Part shown: positions 9,890 through 16,440 of the stretch, piece after piece
Numbering within the stretch: the first letter of the stretch is position 1
Layout of the letters: every line of letters begins with the position of its first letter
Source: a virus
DNA length: 34,200 nucleotides
Direction: 5' to 3' (one strand)
IMG/VR virus record: IMGVR_UViG_3300036832_001210
Coordinates: 1-34,200 of that record
Program-made: the position numbers and the translations under genes
Notes under the pieces: generated by a model
What the model was told of the DNA's origin: nothing
The model's database searches: none
The model's input: only the letters and a program-made list of their open reading frames with translations

Positions 9890-10107
9890 CAGGGCAGACT
9901 CAGAGCGTCGACCTTGGCACCCGCGGTGTCGATATAGCTGCAGGCCTTTTCCCAAGCATGGGCGGCGCCCTTGTCGCCCCAGTTGGAACGGAGATGCTCG
10001 GCCTTCTCGCTGGCGATGTCCGAGAGCATCGACAGCACACAGTATAGGCCGTGGCGGTCGATCATCGCCTCGAGCTCCGGAAGGTCGTCCTTGCTGGTCT
10101 TGCTCAT
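9889..10107 (-). CDS. Small helical phage protein (72 aa)
   Basis: A 72-aa, all-helical protein: ELEAMIDRHGLYCVLSMLSD, then IASEKAEHLRSNWGDKGAA and AWEKACSYIDTAGAK. The 'D..GL..VL..LS.IA.eKAeHlr.nW.D...A..W....' pattern is a familiar small phage protein of unknown role. ATGA overlap with the upstream gene. Function unknown. Confidence 0.6.
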   Translation of the reverse strand: MSKTSKDDLPELEAMIDRHGLYCVLSMLSDIASEKAEHLRSNWGDKGAAHAWEKACSYIDTAGAKVDALSLP

Positions 10108-10394
10108 GCTGCCTCCTTGACGGCTTTGCCGTTGCGGGCGACGACGCGCACGGTCTGCGTCTCGGTCACCTTGGTATTCGCGGTGATGAATTGACGCGAC
10201 AGGTGCTCGCGCACGGCGGCCATGTCGAGCGTCTCGCGCTCGGAGGTGCTGACAGTAGCGCGGAACACTTCGCCCTCATAGGCACCGTCGCCGGCATCCT
10301 TGAGCGCATCCTTGATGGCCTTCGCCTGCTTCTCAAGGTCGGCAATTTCGGCGAGGAGGTAGCCAAGGCGGTCGATCTGAAGATTGTTGGACAT
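10104..10394 (-). CDS. Coiled-coil phage protein (96 aa)
   Basis: A 96-aa protein with an N-terminal coiled coil (YLLAEIADLEKQAKAIKDAL) and a C-terminal strand-rich part (TETQTVRVVARNGKAV). The middle, GEVFRATVSTSERETLDM followed by AAVREHLS, resembles small phage proteins near recombination genes, but I cannot assign a family. It starts behind GGAGCATCACC, the near-constant Shine-Dalgarno leader of this phage. Its leader contains the first copy of the GNRA-hairpin element (10422-10461), so its expression may be controlled by that structure. Confidence 0.6.
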   Translation of the reverse strand: MSNNLQIDRLGYLLAEIADLEKQAKAIKDALKDAGDGAYEGEVFRATVSTSERETLDMAAVREHLSRQFITANTKVTETQTVRVVARNGKAVKEAA

Positions 10395-10421
10395 GGTGTG
10401 ATGCTCCGGAGGCGGGATGCC

Positions 10422-10461
10422 CCTCTAATGCCCCAAGCCCGGTAGCCTTGCGGCGCCGGGC
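10422..10461 (-). ncRNA. GNRA-hairpin leader element, copy 1
   Basis: On the leftward transcript: outer stem GCCCGG/CCGGGC (10456-10461 with 10437-10442), one unpaired C on the 5' side, inner stem GCC/GGC, GCAA tetraloop, TA bulge on the 3' side, then the tail TTGGGGCATTAGAGG. It lies 28 nt before the start of the 96-aa gene. The same architecture occurs at 14093, 15271 and 15467. Confidence 0.65.
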
Positions 10462-10482
10462 AGGAGGCGATATGCCTAAATT

Positions 10483-10626: not shown

Positions 10627-10640
10627 GTGATGCTCCTAAA

Positions 10641-10657
10641 CGAGCCCCAATGGCTCG
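10641..10657 (-). promoter_or_regulatory. 5'-terminal mRNA hairpin (copy A)
   Basis: On the transcript: CGAGCC-ATTGG-GGCTCG, a 6-bp stem with a 5-nt loop. It starts 8 nt after the -10 hexamer, that is at the expected transcription start, and lies 15 nt upstream of the ATG of the 47-aa gene, just before AGGAGCATCAC. Confidence 0.7.
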
Positions 10658-11923: not shown

Positions 11924-11936
11924 GAAAATCTCCAAT

Positions 11937-11953
11937 CGAGCCCCAATGGCTCA
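11937..11953 (-). promoter_or_regulatory. 5'-terminal mRNA hairpin (copy B)
   Basis: On the transcript: TGAGCC-ATTGG-GGCTCG, with a wobble closing pair. It starts 7 nt after the -10 hexamer GACAAG and is followed by TTGGAG and the ATG of the DUF6011-like gene. Confidence 0.65.
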
Positions 11954-12196: not shown

Positions 12197-12210
12197 GTGA
12201 TTCTCCGGGT

Positions 12211-12227
12211 CGAGCCCCAATGGCTCG
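12211..12227 (-). promoter_or_regulatory. 5'-terminal mRNA hairpin (copy C)
   Basis: CGAGCC-ATTGG-GGCTCG on the leftward transcript, 8 nt after -10 CATATG and just before CCGGAGAATCAC-ATG. Confidence 0.7.
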
Positions 12228-13580: not shown

Positions 13581-13840
13581 TTAGCGGCGGTCGGGAGGAC
13601 TAGTCCCGGCCGCCGCTTTTGCGGGTGTTGTTTCCGACCGCCGACACCGCCCGCTGGTCGACGTCGCAGCCTGACGCTCTCGCTCGATAGCGGCGCCACC
13701 CCTGCGCTGGGCTAGCCCCGAATCATTAAAAAGCCTCGACGCAAACACTCTCATGCCGCATGTGTCACAGTAAAGAGGCCGCGTGCCATGATTAATATTT
13801 TCGGAAAGAGTGTGGCATTTAGGCCAGTGTGAATGCTCAT
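13581..13840 (-). pseudogene. Possible frameshifted zinc-ribbon gene
   Basis: The ATG at 13838-13840 follows AGAGCATCAC, the phage's standard leader, but its own frame gives only 29 codons (MSIHTGLNATLFPKILIM...). In the neighbouring frame, the same DNA reads HSHWPKCHTLSENINHGTRP followed by LYCDTCGMRVFASRL, a plausible H/C-x-C ... C-x2-C zinc ribbon that runs to a stop at 13581. The ribbon frame has no start codon between promoter and motif. A one-base shift just after codon 4 would join leader and ribbon. It may be a pseudogene, a sequencing error, or recoding. Confidence 0.35.
13583..13617 (+). terminator. Strong hairpin with T-run on the plus strand
   Basis: A 14-bp stem (13583-13596 pairing with 13604-13617, one wobble) has a 7-nt loop and is followed by TTT on the plus strand. 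It looks like an intrinsic terminator facing rightward, opposite to the genes here. On the leftward transcript it is simply a very stable hairpin in the leader of the 270-aa gene. Confidence 0.45.
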
Positions 13841-13898: not shown

Positions 13899-13930
13899 CC
13901 TCCCGGTGGCGAGACCGGAAGGGTCGAAGG

Positions 13931-14062
13931 TCAGTAACAGTAGGTATTGCAGACACGCTGACTGCCGTAGGTGTTACAGGTCGTATTGCAGTATCCGGCC
14001 TTGGCCGGAATCGCTGTGGCCAACAGCGACAGCGCAGCGATCGCGAAAATAAACGCCTTCAT
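13931..14062 (-). CDS. Exported cysteine-rich micropeptide (43 aa)
   Basis: A 43-aa protein with signal peptide MKAFIFAIAALSLLATAIPAKA and a mature peptide of about 21 residues, GYCNTTCNTYGSQRVCNTYC plus Y. It has four cysteines arranged as two C-N-T-x-C units, suggesting two disulfides once in the periplasm. GGAGG lies upstream (GGAGGAACAG-ATG). Its leader carries GNRA-hairpin copy 2. Too short for the usual gene finders, but signal peptide, ribosome-binding site and cysteine symmetry argue for a real product. Function unknown; envelope-active toxin-like or exclusion peptides are possibilities. Confidence 0.6.
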   Translation of the reverse strand: MKAFIFAIAALSLLATAIPAKAGYCNTTCNTYGSQRVCNTYCY

Positions 14063-14086
14063 CTGTTCCTCCATGGGGACCATCCC

Positions 14087-14127
14087 CACTACCTTGTGCC
14101 CGGTAGGGTTTCCCCGCCGGGCACAAG
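14087..14127 (-). ncRNA. GNRA-hairpin leader element, copy 2
   Basis: On the transcript: stem CTTGTGCCCGG / CCGGGCACAAG (11 bp, 14117-14127 with 14093-14103), an unpaired C, inner stem GGG/CCC, GAAA tetraloop and a TA bulge. The 3' tail GTAGTGG keeps part of the tail of the other copies (AGGYAGTRG). It lies between the DUF932-like stop and the start of the Cys-rich micropeptide; the stem is longer than in copies 1, 3 and 4. Confidence 0.65.
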
Positions 14128-14142
14128 GGCTATTGTGGAGGC

Positions 14143-15225
14143 TCAGGCGGCTTCTGCCAAACGCTTCCAGCCATCCTTGGGCAGCTCGATCACCTGTGCA
14201 CCGATGCGCTCCAGCTCGGTGGCTCGGTCATAGTCCTCGACGTCCTGAGACAGCCGGGTGACGGCGTTATAGAGACCGAACCGGTTCAGGTCGCCACCCT
14301 CGATCAGGTGCTTCAGCACGCCTTTGCCTTCGCCATCGGTGAGGCCCAGCTTCTTGGTCGACAGCGAGACGAACTTGACGACGTCATCCGCCTCGATCTT
14401 GTCCTGCTGAGTGCCTTCGATCTTGTCGACCAGCGCATCGAACTTGGCGCGCTCGAATGCGCCACGAACGACGTCCCTGACGGTCGACCAGAGCGCGGCA
14501 TTGTTCAGCCGCTTGCTCTTGTCCGAGAGCAGCGCATAGAGCTCACCTTCGGCAATCGACTGCCGGCCGCCGACGTGGGTGCGACGCAACGAGCGCTCGG
14601 CGAACGAGGCAAGGTTCGAGCACCAGCTGTCGTAGACGCCACCTTCGATGGCCAGCCTGCCCATGCCCACTTCGCTGTTAGAGATGGTGATGGCGGGGCT
14701 GGTGACGCGGACGATCGTGTGACCTCCATCGCCAAACCGGGCACCGGTTTTCGCCAGCTTACGGCTGACCTTCTTGTCCACGGCCTTAATGTAGAGCCTG
14801 CGCTCCGTGATCTCGCTCGACATGATGTCGAGACCAAGGTCCAGCAGCACGGGAAGAACAGCCTCAGCCAAGTCCTCGTTCTCCATGTCCGGATTGAACT
14901 TGTCCGACAGGAAGGCACGAGCGTTGCCGTCGAGCGTCCGTACCATGCGCGGAGCAGGGTACTTGCGGAACCACTCGTTGACATTGTTGGCGAGCAGAGC
15001 CGGAACTTCCTTGAGCATCCGGTCATAGTACTGTTTGGGTATTTCGGTGTGAACGGCAATCTGGCTATGAGCGATGCCATTGACGCCGAACGAGTGATCA
15101 CCGATGTCAAGCTTAAGCCCATCGGTGAGGGTGAGGTTCTTGGTTGATGCCACAAGGTCTTGCTTCGCGTTGGCACGACGCTCGATCTCGGCGGCGAGTT
15201 CGGTGAGGGTCTTTCCGGCCTTCAT
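14143..15225 (-). CDS. DUF932-like phage protein (360 aa)
   Basis: Start at MKAGKTLTELAAEIERRANA (ATG 15223-15225) after GGGAGCATCACTAC. The features FGVNGIAHSQIAVHTEIPK, YYDRMLKEVPALLANNVNEW, RMVRTLDGNARAFLSDKFNP and the repeated late motif GGVYDSWCSNLASFAE match the DUF932/phage-plasmid-like family (usually 300-400 aa). Its members occur next to replication and recombination genes. The exact activity is unknown; DNA-related functions have been proposed from context. Two tandem GNRA-hairpin elements and a CGAGAC hairpin lie in its 340-nt leader, the most elaborate leader in the window, which suggests tightly controlled expression. Confidence 0.8.
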   Translation of the reverse strand: MKAGKTLTELAAEIERRANAKQDLVASTKNLTLTDGLKLDIGDHSFGVNGIAHSQIAVHTEIPKQYYDRMLKEVPALLANNVNEWFRKYPAPRMVRTLDGNARAFLSDKFNPDMENEDLAEAVLPVLLDLGLDIMSSEITERRLYIKAVDKKVSRKLAKTGARFGDGGHTIVRVTSPAITISNSEVGMGRLAIEGGVYDSWCSNLASFAERSLRRTHVGGRQSIAEGELYALLSDKSKRLNNAALWSTVRDVVRGAFERAKFDALVDKIEGTQQDKIEADDVVKFVSLSTKKLGLTDGEGKGVLKHLIEGGDLNRFGLYNAVTRLSQDVEDYDRATELERIGAQVIELPKDGWKRLAEAA

Positions 15226-15251
15226 GTAGTGATGCTCCCTTAGGGGTTGGT

Positions 15252-15268
15252 CGAGACCCAATGTCTCG
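15252..15268 (-). promoter_or_regulatory. mRNA hairpin (copy D, covarying stem)
   Basis: CGAGAC-ATTGG-GTCTCG on the transcript. Compared with the CGAGCC/GGCTCG copies, the fifth base pair has changed on both sides (C-G to A-T), keeping the pairing and the loop. It sits 27 nt upstream of the DUF932-like ATG and directly after GNRA copy 4. Confidence 0.7.
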
Positions 15269-15270
15269 GC

Positions 15271-15312
15271 CTTCTATTGCCTCAAGGCCGGTGAGGGTTG
15301 CCCCTGCCGGCC
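15271..15312 (-). ncRNA. GNRA-hairpin leader element, copy 4
   Basis: On the transcript: outer stem GGCCGG / CCGGCC (15307-15312 with 15286-15291), CA on the 5' side, inner stem GGG/CCC, GCAA tetraloop, TCA bulge, then tail TTGAGGCAATAGAAG. The outer stem differs from the others by a compensatory C-G to G-C change. Confidence 0.7.
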
Positions 15313-15466
15313 GTGAGGTCTGCGATCTATGCTGCAACAGTGGTCGTAACGGCCCGCAGAGGCCTGCCACACTACGTTCTCGCTTATCCCTAGCGTCGGG
15401 GTACTCCCGATATTTCTCAGCGATACGCGCGCCTTTTGGGCCAGAATCTTACGCCGCATAGATGGT

Positions 15467-15508
15467 CTTCTACTGCCTCAAGCCCGGTAGCTGTTTCCAG
15501 CGCCGGGC
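15467..15508 (-). ncRNA. GNRA-hairpin leader element, copy 3
   Basis: On the transcript: outer stem GCCCGG / CCGGGC (15503-15508 with 15482-15487), unpaired G/C position, inner stem GCTG/CAGC, GAAA tetraloop, TA bulge, tail TTGAGGCAGTAGAAG. The tail differs from copy 4 at one base. It stands about 155 nt upstream of copy 4 in the same leader. Confidence 0.7.
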
Positions 15509-15566
15509 GTAAGGTGGGATTATTTCCTCAGTCTTCGTGGGCTCCTCGCCCCTGAGTAACTCATCC

Positions 15567-15764
15567 TCAGCAGAACGTCTCGATGCGCTCTGCATTCTTG
15601 GCGATAAAGACGTGGGCCTGCTCCACAGTCTCGAACTTCACTGCCACTTTGTGAGTGGTCTCACGGATGACACCACTCGCTTGCACCTGCTGACGCACCC
15701 GCACGATGCGGAAAGGCCAGCGGCTCTTAGGATTGGTGCGTCGGACGATGTGCTTGACAGTCAT
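15567..15764 (-). CDS. Small beta-rich protein (65 aa)
   Basis: Start at MTVKHIVRRTNPKSRWPFRI (ATG 15762-15764), behind GGGAGGATTGC. The sequence alternates strands (RVRQQVQASGV, HKVAVKFETVEQAHVFIAK) and ends with a helix, ERIETFC; the layout is that of a small single-domain phage protein. Downstream is the DUF932-like leader, upstream a long structured leader with a CGAGCC hairpin. No family recognised. Confidence 0.6.
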   Translation of the reverse strand: MTVKHIVRRTNPKSRWPFRIVRVRQQVQASGVIRETTHKVAVKFETVEQAHVFIAKNAERIETFC

Positions 15765-16027
15765 GCAATCCTCCCAGTTGATCGAGCCCCGATGGCTCGA
15801 CATCAGTAGAATGGGGCGGCCTCAAACACCTGCGGCTTCTGGTCCGGTTGCCCGGTAGCTGGACCGCAGGCGGGTAGGATGTTATCGCCCCGCTTAACCC
15901 TATCGTAGTCGGCGGCTGGAAAGCGAGAGTTCGAAACCGGCTATCTCAGTGGCTGCGCGGGTTGCTGTAGAAGCAGTGGCCGTCTCACCTATTCTGCGCT
16001 CTGGTATCTCGCCTTCCAACGACCGGG
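15765..16027 (-). promoter_or_regulatory. 263-nt leader with several hairpins upstream of the 65-aa gene
   Basis: Between promoter E and the ATG at 15764 lies an unusually long leader. It includes a hairpin with stem CCTGCGG/CCGCAGG and inner GGTCC/GGACC (15829-15870) followed by TTTGAGGC, which looks like a diverged fifth relative of the GNRA element. Near its 3' end is a CGAGCC-ATCGG-GGCTCG hairpin (15783-15799). No convincing gene is inside. Confidence 0.5.
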
Positions 16028-16068
16028 TTTATCTCATAACCCGGCCGCCGTGTCAACAGGGTGTTGAC
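16028..16068 (-). promoter_or_regulatory. Promoter with overlapping operator (copy E)
   Basis: Dyad GTCAAC-AGGGT-GTTGAC at 16052-16068. Leftward -35 TTGACA (16051-16056), 17 bp, -10 GATAAA (16028-16033), with TATGA just before the -10 as in copies A and B. The -10 region also lies in a 7-bp inverted repeat (CCGGGTT / AACCCGG). Confidence 0.65.
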
Positions 16069-16440
16069 CTAGGCAATCTCTTTCTCAGATGCCTGTGGAA
16101 AAAAGTGTGACGCTTCCGGTGCGTCCTTTTTGTTCCACTGGTCGAACCTTTCGTTGCCATCCGGACAGAGCTCATCCAGCTTGGCATGGATTTCCTTCGT
16201 GCCATCGTCGGCCCGGAGCGTGTGTACCGGCACCCATTTGTTATCGCAGACCGGTAAGCCGCTATCGGTAAGCCACCCGCGATAGTGCCAGATCGGATGC
16301 TCCTCGATCTTGCATCTCTTGCGTGGCGCCGGTTTCGCGTAATGCCACTTGATCGACCCCCTGCCGGTCTCAATCCAGACCGGGATGAGACGCGCATCGC
16401 AGAGGGTGACTTCCAGACCGAACCGTGTATAGATAGCCAT
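16069..16440 (-). CDS. Hypothetical protein (123 aa)
   Basis: Start MAIYTRFGLEVTLCDARLIP at 16438-16440 behind AAAGGAAGTAGCA. The product is strand-rich and Trp-rich (IPVWIETGRGSIKWHY, HPIWHYRGWLTDSGLP, NKWVPVHTL), ending with a charged helix. This looks like a small beta domain that may recognise a ligand or nucleic acid. Its stop abuts operator E. No family recognised. Confidence 0.6.
   Translation of the reverse strand: MAIYTRFGLEVTLCDARLIPVWIETGRGSIKWHYAKPAPRKRCKIEEHPIWHYRGWLTDSGLPVCDNKWVPVHTLRADDGTKEIHAKLDELCPDGNERFDQWNKKDAPEASHFFPQASEKEIA

Follow-up and report, generated by a model that had tools for sequence, protein, structure and literature searches.

In the early RNA of phage T7, RNase III sites stand between genes as irregular hairpins located between a stop codon and the next ribosome site, several of them per transcript; we know of no conserved linker and second hairpin in these sites. 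The put RNAs of phage HK022 are made up of two neighbouring stems, lie near promoters and occur in two copies, and their partner is the host RNA polymerase, not a phage protein. The manA and wcaG motifs of cyanophages are described, in the parts of the report on which we draw, as structured RNAs in 5′ UTRs that are tied to metabolic genes (PMC2864571). In Cluster K mycobacteriophages, the 13-bp SAS lies at the ribosome site; changes in the 17-bp inverted repeats of the ESAS give little support to RNA pairing, and the authors, in the sections of the paper used here, favour DNA-binding sites (PMC3203893). Similar motifs are known in Microbacterium phages from the excerpts used here (PMC7302621), and a further source, likewise used in part, bears on the comparison with SAS/ESAS (PMC12699233).

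Here we describe a structured RNA family that has not been listed before and that recurs in phages of Bradyrhizobium. The stretch of DNA analysed, which we call the window, comprises positions 1 to 34,200 (34,200 nucleotides) of IMG/VR virus record IMGVR_UViG_3300036832_001210. The locus in question, 15226–15566, is the exact 341-nt gap between a DUF932-like gene (14143–15225, minus strand) and the stop codon of a 64-amino-acid ORF ending at 15567, and the whole arrangement of gene, leader and hairpins is carried on the minus strand. The original prediction placed two copies of one RNA element in this leader, about 155 nt apart. Both copies are real and on the minus strand, where each is matched by R1, a covariance model built from 27 copies with three window copies included, and the spacing is right, the P1 hairpins being 157 nt apart as measured. 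The features of the window are:

15476–15514, minus strand: P1 hairpin of the upstream copy of the pair (R1 match 15459–15528, 66.5 bits; z −6.05), made up of CCUUA/UGAGG, a 6-bp GC stem, a C/UA internal loop and a GAAA loop, with consensus covariation
15274–15459, minus strand: 61-amino-acid ORF between both copies, a doubtful gene, its stop being a UAG in the linker of the second copy
15280–15318, minus strand: P1 hairpin of the downstream copy, directly 5′ of the DUF932-like gene (R1 match 15263–15332, 54.0 bits; z −5.60), with a GCAA loop
15249–15271, minus strand: P2 hairpin of the downstream copy, identical with the CGAGAC hairpin (z −2.18); P2 is general in the family
15223–15241, minus strand: Shine-Dalgarno sequence AAGGGAG, spacer and ATG of the DUF932-like gene, as read from the sequence
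14143–15225, minus strand: DUF932-like gene (phrog_1362), 360 amino acids, a family-level match via relatives
14092–14128, minus strand: P1 hairpin of the third copy (model match 14075–14142, 44.1 bits, outside the R1 seed)
14075–14087, minus strand: P2 hairpin of the third copy (GGGGAUGGUCCCC), followed by GGAGG and the start of a 43-amino-acid secreted-type peptide
10431–10467, minus strand: P1 hairpin of the fourth copy, with a GCAA loop (model match 10414–10481, 65.4 bits; z −2.69, 4/200 shuffles)
10409–10425, minus strand: P2 hairpin of the fourth copy, followed by CGGAGC and ATG

A search of the window with R1 thus returns four copies (66.5, 65.4, 54.0 and 44.1 bits), the next best match reaching 10.8 bits; three of the four were in R1's own seed, and the one at 14075–14142 was not. 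The stop codon of the DUF932-like gene lies directly 5′ of that match, and the fourth copy stands 5′ of a 96-amino-acid ORF (10104–10394). None of 200 dinucleotide shuffles was as stable as either P1 hairpin of the pair. The predicted CGAGAC hairpin holds up as well (6/200 shuffles), with AAGGGAG and then ATG after it. The computed accessibility of the ribosome site is mixed across the four window copies, not uniformly open. A scan of 13900–16200 gave no minus-strand terminator-like site at the P1 or P2 hairpins of the three copies it covers, and an intrinsic terminator (a GC hairpin with a U run) was rejected on that basis. As a separate observation, related small secreted-type peptides containing cysteine follow the element both in the window (13931–14062, minus strand) and in the virus locus L162, downstream of 527–594.

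The unit follows a specific order: the upstream stop codon, about 14 nt, P1, a 5-nt linker, a variable P2, a Shine-Dalgarno sequence and a start codon. P1 comprises about 15 bp with the C/UA internal loop, and the conserved linker reads C-R-N-Y-A. From the first 27 copies, RNAalifold recovered the same helix unaided. In the larger alignment A4 (93 copies, 92 distinct, from which L164, a near-duplicate of L163, and L230, a near-duplicate of L226 and L233, are omitted), compensatory change on both sides is seen in 12 of 13 base pairs, the paired fraction of cells is 95.4% (79.8% in shuffles), and the covariation score of 0.491 was reached by none of 500 shuffles, figures to be read with the fact that A4 was aligned to the model and so leans towards it. 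Sliding the partners lowers the score to 0.065–0.129, and the eight strongest coupled column pairs all lie within P1, including a third apical pair that is absent from the model. Furthermore, G-U cells outnumber A-C cells by approximately 95 to 18, which points to the coding-strand RNA as the working form; an element acting at the DNA level was rejected on these counts. Several unpaired positions are conserved as well (C27 99%, G72 94%, A54 93%, C67 90%, A71 87% and U53 85%), and the tetraloop is mostly GNRA, with UUCG in its place in one copy (L268). The original prediction of a genuine recurring RNA structure just 5′ of genes is therefore borne out beyond chance by helix recovery, R1 matches and covariation, and the family and its anatomy can be taken as established.

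The family is present in 36 virus records besides the window, with up to five copies per record. A pattern derived from the window copies matched 32 stretches of the viral collection, and two variant patterns matched 7 and 23. Seven of the 32 loci (L146, L150, L152, L161, L167, L171 and L174), which by eye had no paired flanks, were removed before alignment A2 was made; a first pattern, TTGAGGCANTAGAAG, was too loose, with matches in at least 120 stretches of that collection, and contributed no loci to the analysis. By prescribing the CCGG arms and TTGRGGC, the seed pattern itself selected for conservation of these columns in A2, a constraint of which the later, model-driven copies of A4 are free. 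All 24 pattern-found records searched have R1 matches, as do all 12 further ones; since the pattern served to find these records, the proportions are not frequencies. A pattern of this type gave two matches when applied to 84,980 genomes of bacteria and archaea. One lies in a Bradyrhizobium elkanii contig of genome G041 and is the same locus as virus record G025, such that the two counts overlap; the other (L179) lies, by eye, inside a coding frame and was set aside. B. elkanii WSM2783 (contig NZ_AXAP01000067.1, L178) is an example of a laboratory strain with a carrier prophage or phage contig.

Within a set of Bradyrhizobium genomes, R1 finds the element in 18 of 265. A second model, R2, gives 3/248 in a family sample, 1/347 for the order, 1/337 for the class and 1/349 for the phylum; the query genome is one of the matches in each sample, leaving two further genomes in the family and none beyond it in order, class or phylum. 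From genus to phylum, each genome in these searches was scored on 14 to 20 candidates. Prophages or mobile elements account for at least some of the genome loci: one has a terminase nearby, another an integrase-type arm-binding domain, and one genome region has several protein families in common with the virus records. Among the genomes searched, then, the element is nearly restricted to phages and prophages of Bradyrhizobium and its relatives. Two loci of the Bradyrhizobium set (L254, 8208–9101, and L257, 5038–7640) show the element near a gene for a CAP12/Pycsar TIR effector and a restriction-modification pair of the BsuBI/PstI type, possible defence cargo.

Comparison with described RNAs and phages did not assign the element to a known family. 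Rfam release 15 gives no match in the window at gathering score; at E values up to 5, the sole match there is Proteo-phage-1 (13617–13712, minus strand, 30.8 bits against a cut-off of 42, E 0.072). In five carriers, Rfam gives ten matches, all below gathering score and none at the listed element copies, and a known Rfam family was rejected on the lack of any match at gathering score in the window and these five. Likewise, BLASTN of single copies against GenBank phages returned no match or short pieces at chance level, megablast of 10 kb of the window against phages returned no match, and a literature search, mostly outside subscription journals, did not find the family in print.

The position of the element between genes is as specific as its fold. 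The upstream gene's stop codon falls at −3 to +1 of the model start, some 14 nt before P1, in approximately 69 of 93 copies, and a start codon lies 5–50 nt past the model in approximately 81 of 93. These are approximate, as are the pair, downstream-family, G-U/A-C and P2 counts, because the start codon was chosen by an ad hoc scoring rule, which for the copy at 10414–10481 took a 43-amino-acid frame (+116) and not the 96-amino-acid ORF (+19). A promoter would hardly fit between the preceding gene and P1, which starts only about 14 nt after the stop codon. Within a carrier phage, some genes lack the element.

P2 is variable in sequence and starts mostly at or just after G72. When 79 distinct linkers were folded, the mean z was −1.31, with 50 below −1 and 24 below −2. 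A P2 of at least 6 bp that ends 13–19 nt before the start codon is present in 39 of 79, whereas 60 shuffling rounds gave 4.0 on average and never more than 9; the count for a P2 of at least 4 bp (67/79) is not very telling, given that shuffled linkers average 51/79. A minority of copies have a weak P2 or none, 12 of the 79 linkers falling short of even 4 bp. Where P2 is present (67 linkers), the median distance from its 3′ end to the start codon is 16 nt, and it thereby ends immediately 5′ of the Shine-Dalgarno sequence. The CGAGAC hairpin of the window is hence no second structure family stacked on the first, as had been proposed: it is P2, which follows P1 in most copies of the family.

It is informative to examine the window pair in light of the other pairs. 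Among 39 pairs of neighbours on the same strand, 38 are separated by a clear gene (counts approximate), and the stop codon of that gene is usually about 14 nt before the next P1. The one exception is the window's own pair, the closest of the 39, with 126 nt between model matches and no structure beyond chance in that spacer (z −0.30). Two copies in one untranslated leader are therefore not a conserved arrangement, being found in 1 of 39 pairs, and the suggestion that they form a tandem aptamer fails on this ground. The window pair is also the least typical in its context, with an upstream stop at −38 for one copy and none for the other. Even the term leader needs correction, for the 61-amino-acid ORF lies inside it and starts right after the first copy. 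For this ORF the codon score over the first 42 codons is 0.03, intermediate between the values for pieces of this phage read in a coding frame (0.40, sd 0.19) and in a wrong frame (−0.33, sd 0.21), and no relative occurs in the collected loci; it may be either a tiny orphan gene or the remnant of one. In view of this doubtful ORF between the closest copies, the pair is best read not as one double sensor but as two ordinary modules with a tiny or decayed gene between them, and throughout the family the copies have the appearance of a regular module for the gaps between genes, not of a paired sensor.

The genes that follow the element have little in common. The 89 downstream proteins called fall into approximately 76 families, the largest of four members, and are mostly small proteins of unknown function. 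The label "DUF932-like" holds at the family level, in that two of eight aligned relatives match PF06067 (best E 1.1e-11); the window protein itself has no Pfam match. A link between element and gene is not supported: the original prediction named related phages that keep the gene and lack the element as the finding that would speak against it, and this is what is seen, in that none of the 16 searched records with the gene, chosen only for the gene and representing 16 of 22 gene-bearing loci, carries the element. A gene-specific leader was rejected on these records and on the diversity of the downstream families. The element does stand 5′ of DUF932-family genes in two other loci, L148 (E 1.8e-29) and L169 (marginal, E 0.0065), and the family of the window protein resembles the L169 protein in profile comparison (probability 95); with 76 downstream families, this recurrence may be chance. 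The RNA fold is under selection, exactly placed and independent of the gene that follows.

Other structured-looking leaders occur near these genes. In the window, a second and longer one (15800–15925, minus strand) lies before the 64-amino-acid ORF and reads ACGATAGGGTTAAGC...GCGATAACATCCTACC...GCAGGTGTTTGAGGCCGCC, with no Rfam match; a pattern made from it matched only virus records L006 and L007, in which a near-identical sequence stands directly before the DUF932-like gene. L009 and L017 have another conserved leader of about 120 nt in common just before that gene, GACTGACTGCCC...GACAATACCGCACTAAATC, and phages with the DUF932-like gene seem to swap structured leaders. Moreover, a GAGCC...GGCTC hairpin (repeat families D6 and D15) lies right before ribosome sites at 10638–10656, 11934–11952, 12208–12226 and 15780–15798 (all minus strand), three of these hairpins having upstream a copy of D2, a promoter-like repeat that contains TTGAC and occurs three times; in many relatives, the DUF932-like gene likewise follows a hairpin similar to this one.

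From this anatomy we infer, with a probability of roughly 45%, that each copy is an intercistronic cis-acting RNA module of the phage mRNA that insulates neighbouring genes and makes their starts independent. The reach of a terminating ribosome and that of an initiating one are close to the distances of the element from the stop and start codons, and the module accordingly fits the stretch that neither covers. Lying between a ribosome that terminates upstream and one that initiates downstream, it would stay folded while both genes are translated, could block run-on or reinitiation from the preceding gene, and would mark a separate start for the following one; small interchangeable genes strung on one transcript might in this way be expressed alike. 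That several unpaired bases are conserved suggests that a trans-acting factor recognises the RNA. No protein family is common to more than 9 of 26 carriers examined, at partial sequence coverage, so that a phage-encoded partner common to all is not seen; together with the near confinement of hosts to Bradyrhizobium and close relatives, this makes a host factor more likely than a phage factor, and the module would probably act through one. One can go further and imagine, as a possible rather than a probable extension, a plug-in start module in which one fold, cut to fit between ribosomes, is read by a Bradyrhizobium host factor (the ribosome, a nuclease or an RNA-binding protein) and provides insulated starts for arbitrary small genes strung on one transcript in many unrelated phages. 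If true, this would amount to RNA-level genetic punctuation of a new kind.

The same placement would also suit a site at which the RNA is cut, and this is the main rival to the insulator reading, since the same location is expected of it. A host nuclease, either of the RNase III type acting in P1 or one cutting the single-stranded linker, would divide the polycistronic mRNA so that each gene has its own message, protected by a hairpin at the 5′ or 3′ end, as in the early RNA of phage T7. The position between stop (69/93) and Shine-Dalgarno sequence or start (81/93), a P1 of about 15 bp with an internal loop, the conserved linker between two hairpins and the common host group of the carriers are all consistent with such processing. 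It is the strict length of P1 and the conservation of unpaired C27, A54 and G72 that fit less well, because a nuclease for double strands is not known to need as much, and we consider a processing site somewhat unlikely. The same unpaired bases, and the several copies per genome before unrelated genes, might instead mean that a regulator encoded by the phage binds here and turns many genes on or off together, as a post-transcriptional regulon. This is clearly unlikely given that no protein family reaches beyond 9 of 26 carriers (partial sequence), and the replacement of GNRA by UUCG in one copy speaks against recognition of the loop.

That copies flank single and highly varied genes invites the thought of a mobile or recombination element, a DNA hairpin marking the boundaries of gene cassettes. 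Yet the approximate counts of 95 G-U and 18 A-C cells speak for coding-strand RNA and not DNA, and copies are hardly more alike within a record (0.71) than between records (0.66), making this very unlikely. Two adjacent stems, near specificity to phages and the absence of a phage partner among the carriers examined recall the put RNAs, and antitermination through RNA polymerase could be proposed; an element that acts on a moving polymerase has no need of placement by stop and start codons, however, and this one is tied to both and repeats every few hundred nucleotides in one string of genes, leaving this explanation a very slim chance. The original prediction of a tandem riboswitch or aptamer for the DUF932-like gene does account for two conserved structures in one gap, but it is largely refuted and by now hardly tenable: 1 of 39 neighbouring pairs (approximate count) is without a clear gene between the copies, about 76 downstream families show no shared pathway of the kind expected of a riboswitch, no Rfam family matches, and the element is in 0 of 16 searched records with the gene.

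Returning to the insulator reading and to the systems described at the outset, the element resembles the T7 RNase III sites in placing hairpins between a stop codon and the next ribosome site and differs from them, as far as they are known, in its conserved linker and P2. It shares two neighbouring stems with the put RNAs of HK022, in contrast to which it occurs in up to five copies per record and between genes. The manA and wcaG motifs are likewise structured RNAs in phage 5′ UTRs, although the portion of the report used here does not mention repetition through one phage genome (PMC2864571). What the present analysis adds to these is a structured RNA family that is well supported, covariation being seen in 12 of 13 pairs over 93 aligned copies, and that has no Rfam match in the scanned stretches; its placement to within a few nucleotides of stop and start leads to a clear, testable prediction on whether and how ribosomes cross from one phage gene to the next.

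SAS/ESAS is the closest known system in its placement. As far as the sections of the sources used here describe it, that signal also comes in many copies per phage, in one orientation and right before the start codons of unrelated genes, in the non-structural part of the genome and confined to a phage group, with a proposed role in translation initiation. The start-codon feature is found here in 81 of 93 copies, before 89 proteins of 76 families (counts approximate). Nonetheless, the Bradyrhizobium-phage element shows strong covariation of its pairs, unlike ESAS; R1 has no match in the searched stretches of phages Anaya and AnnaSerena, and the 13-bp SAS, GGGATAGGAGCCC, has a single match with two mismatches in the window (15539–15551, minus strand), not at a start codon, where 0.69 is expected by chance. 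Identity with SAS/ESAS was rejected on these three grounds. The element is start-associated without being a member of that group, and it offers a way into the question, raised by SAS/ESAS, of why in some phages one repeated signal should mark the starts of many unrelated small genes.
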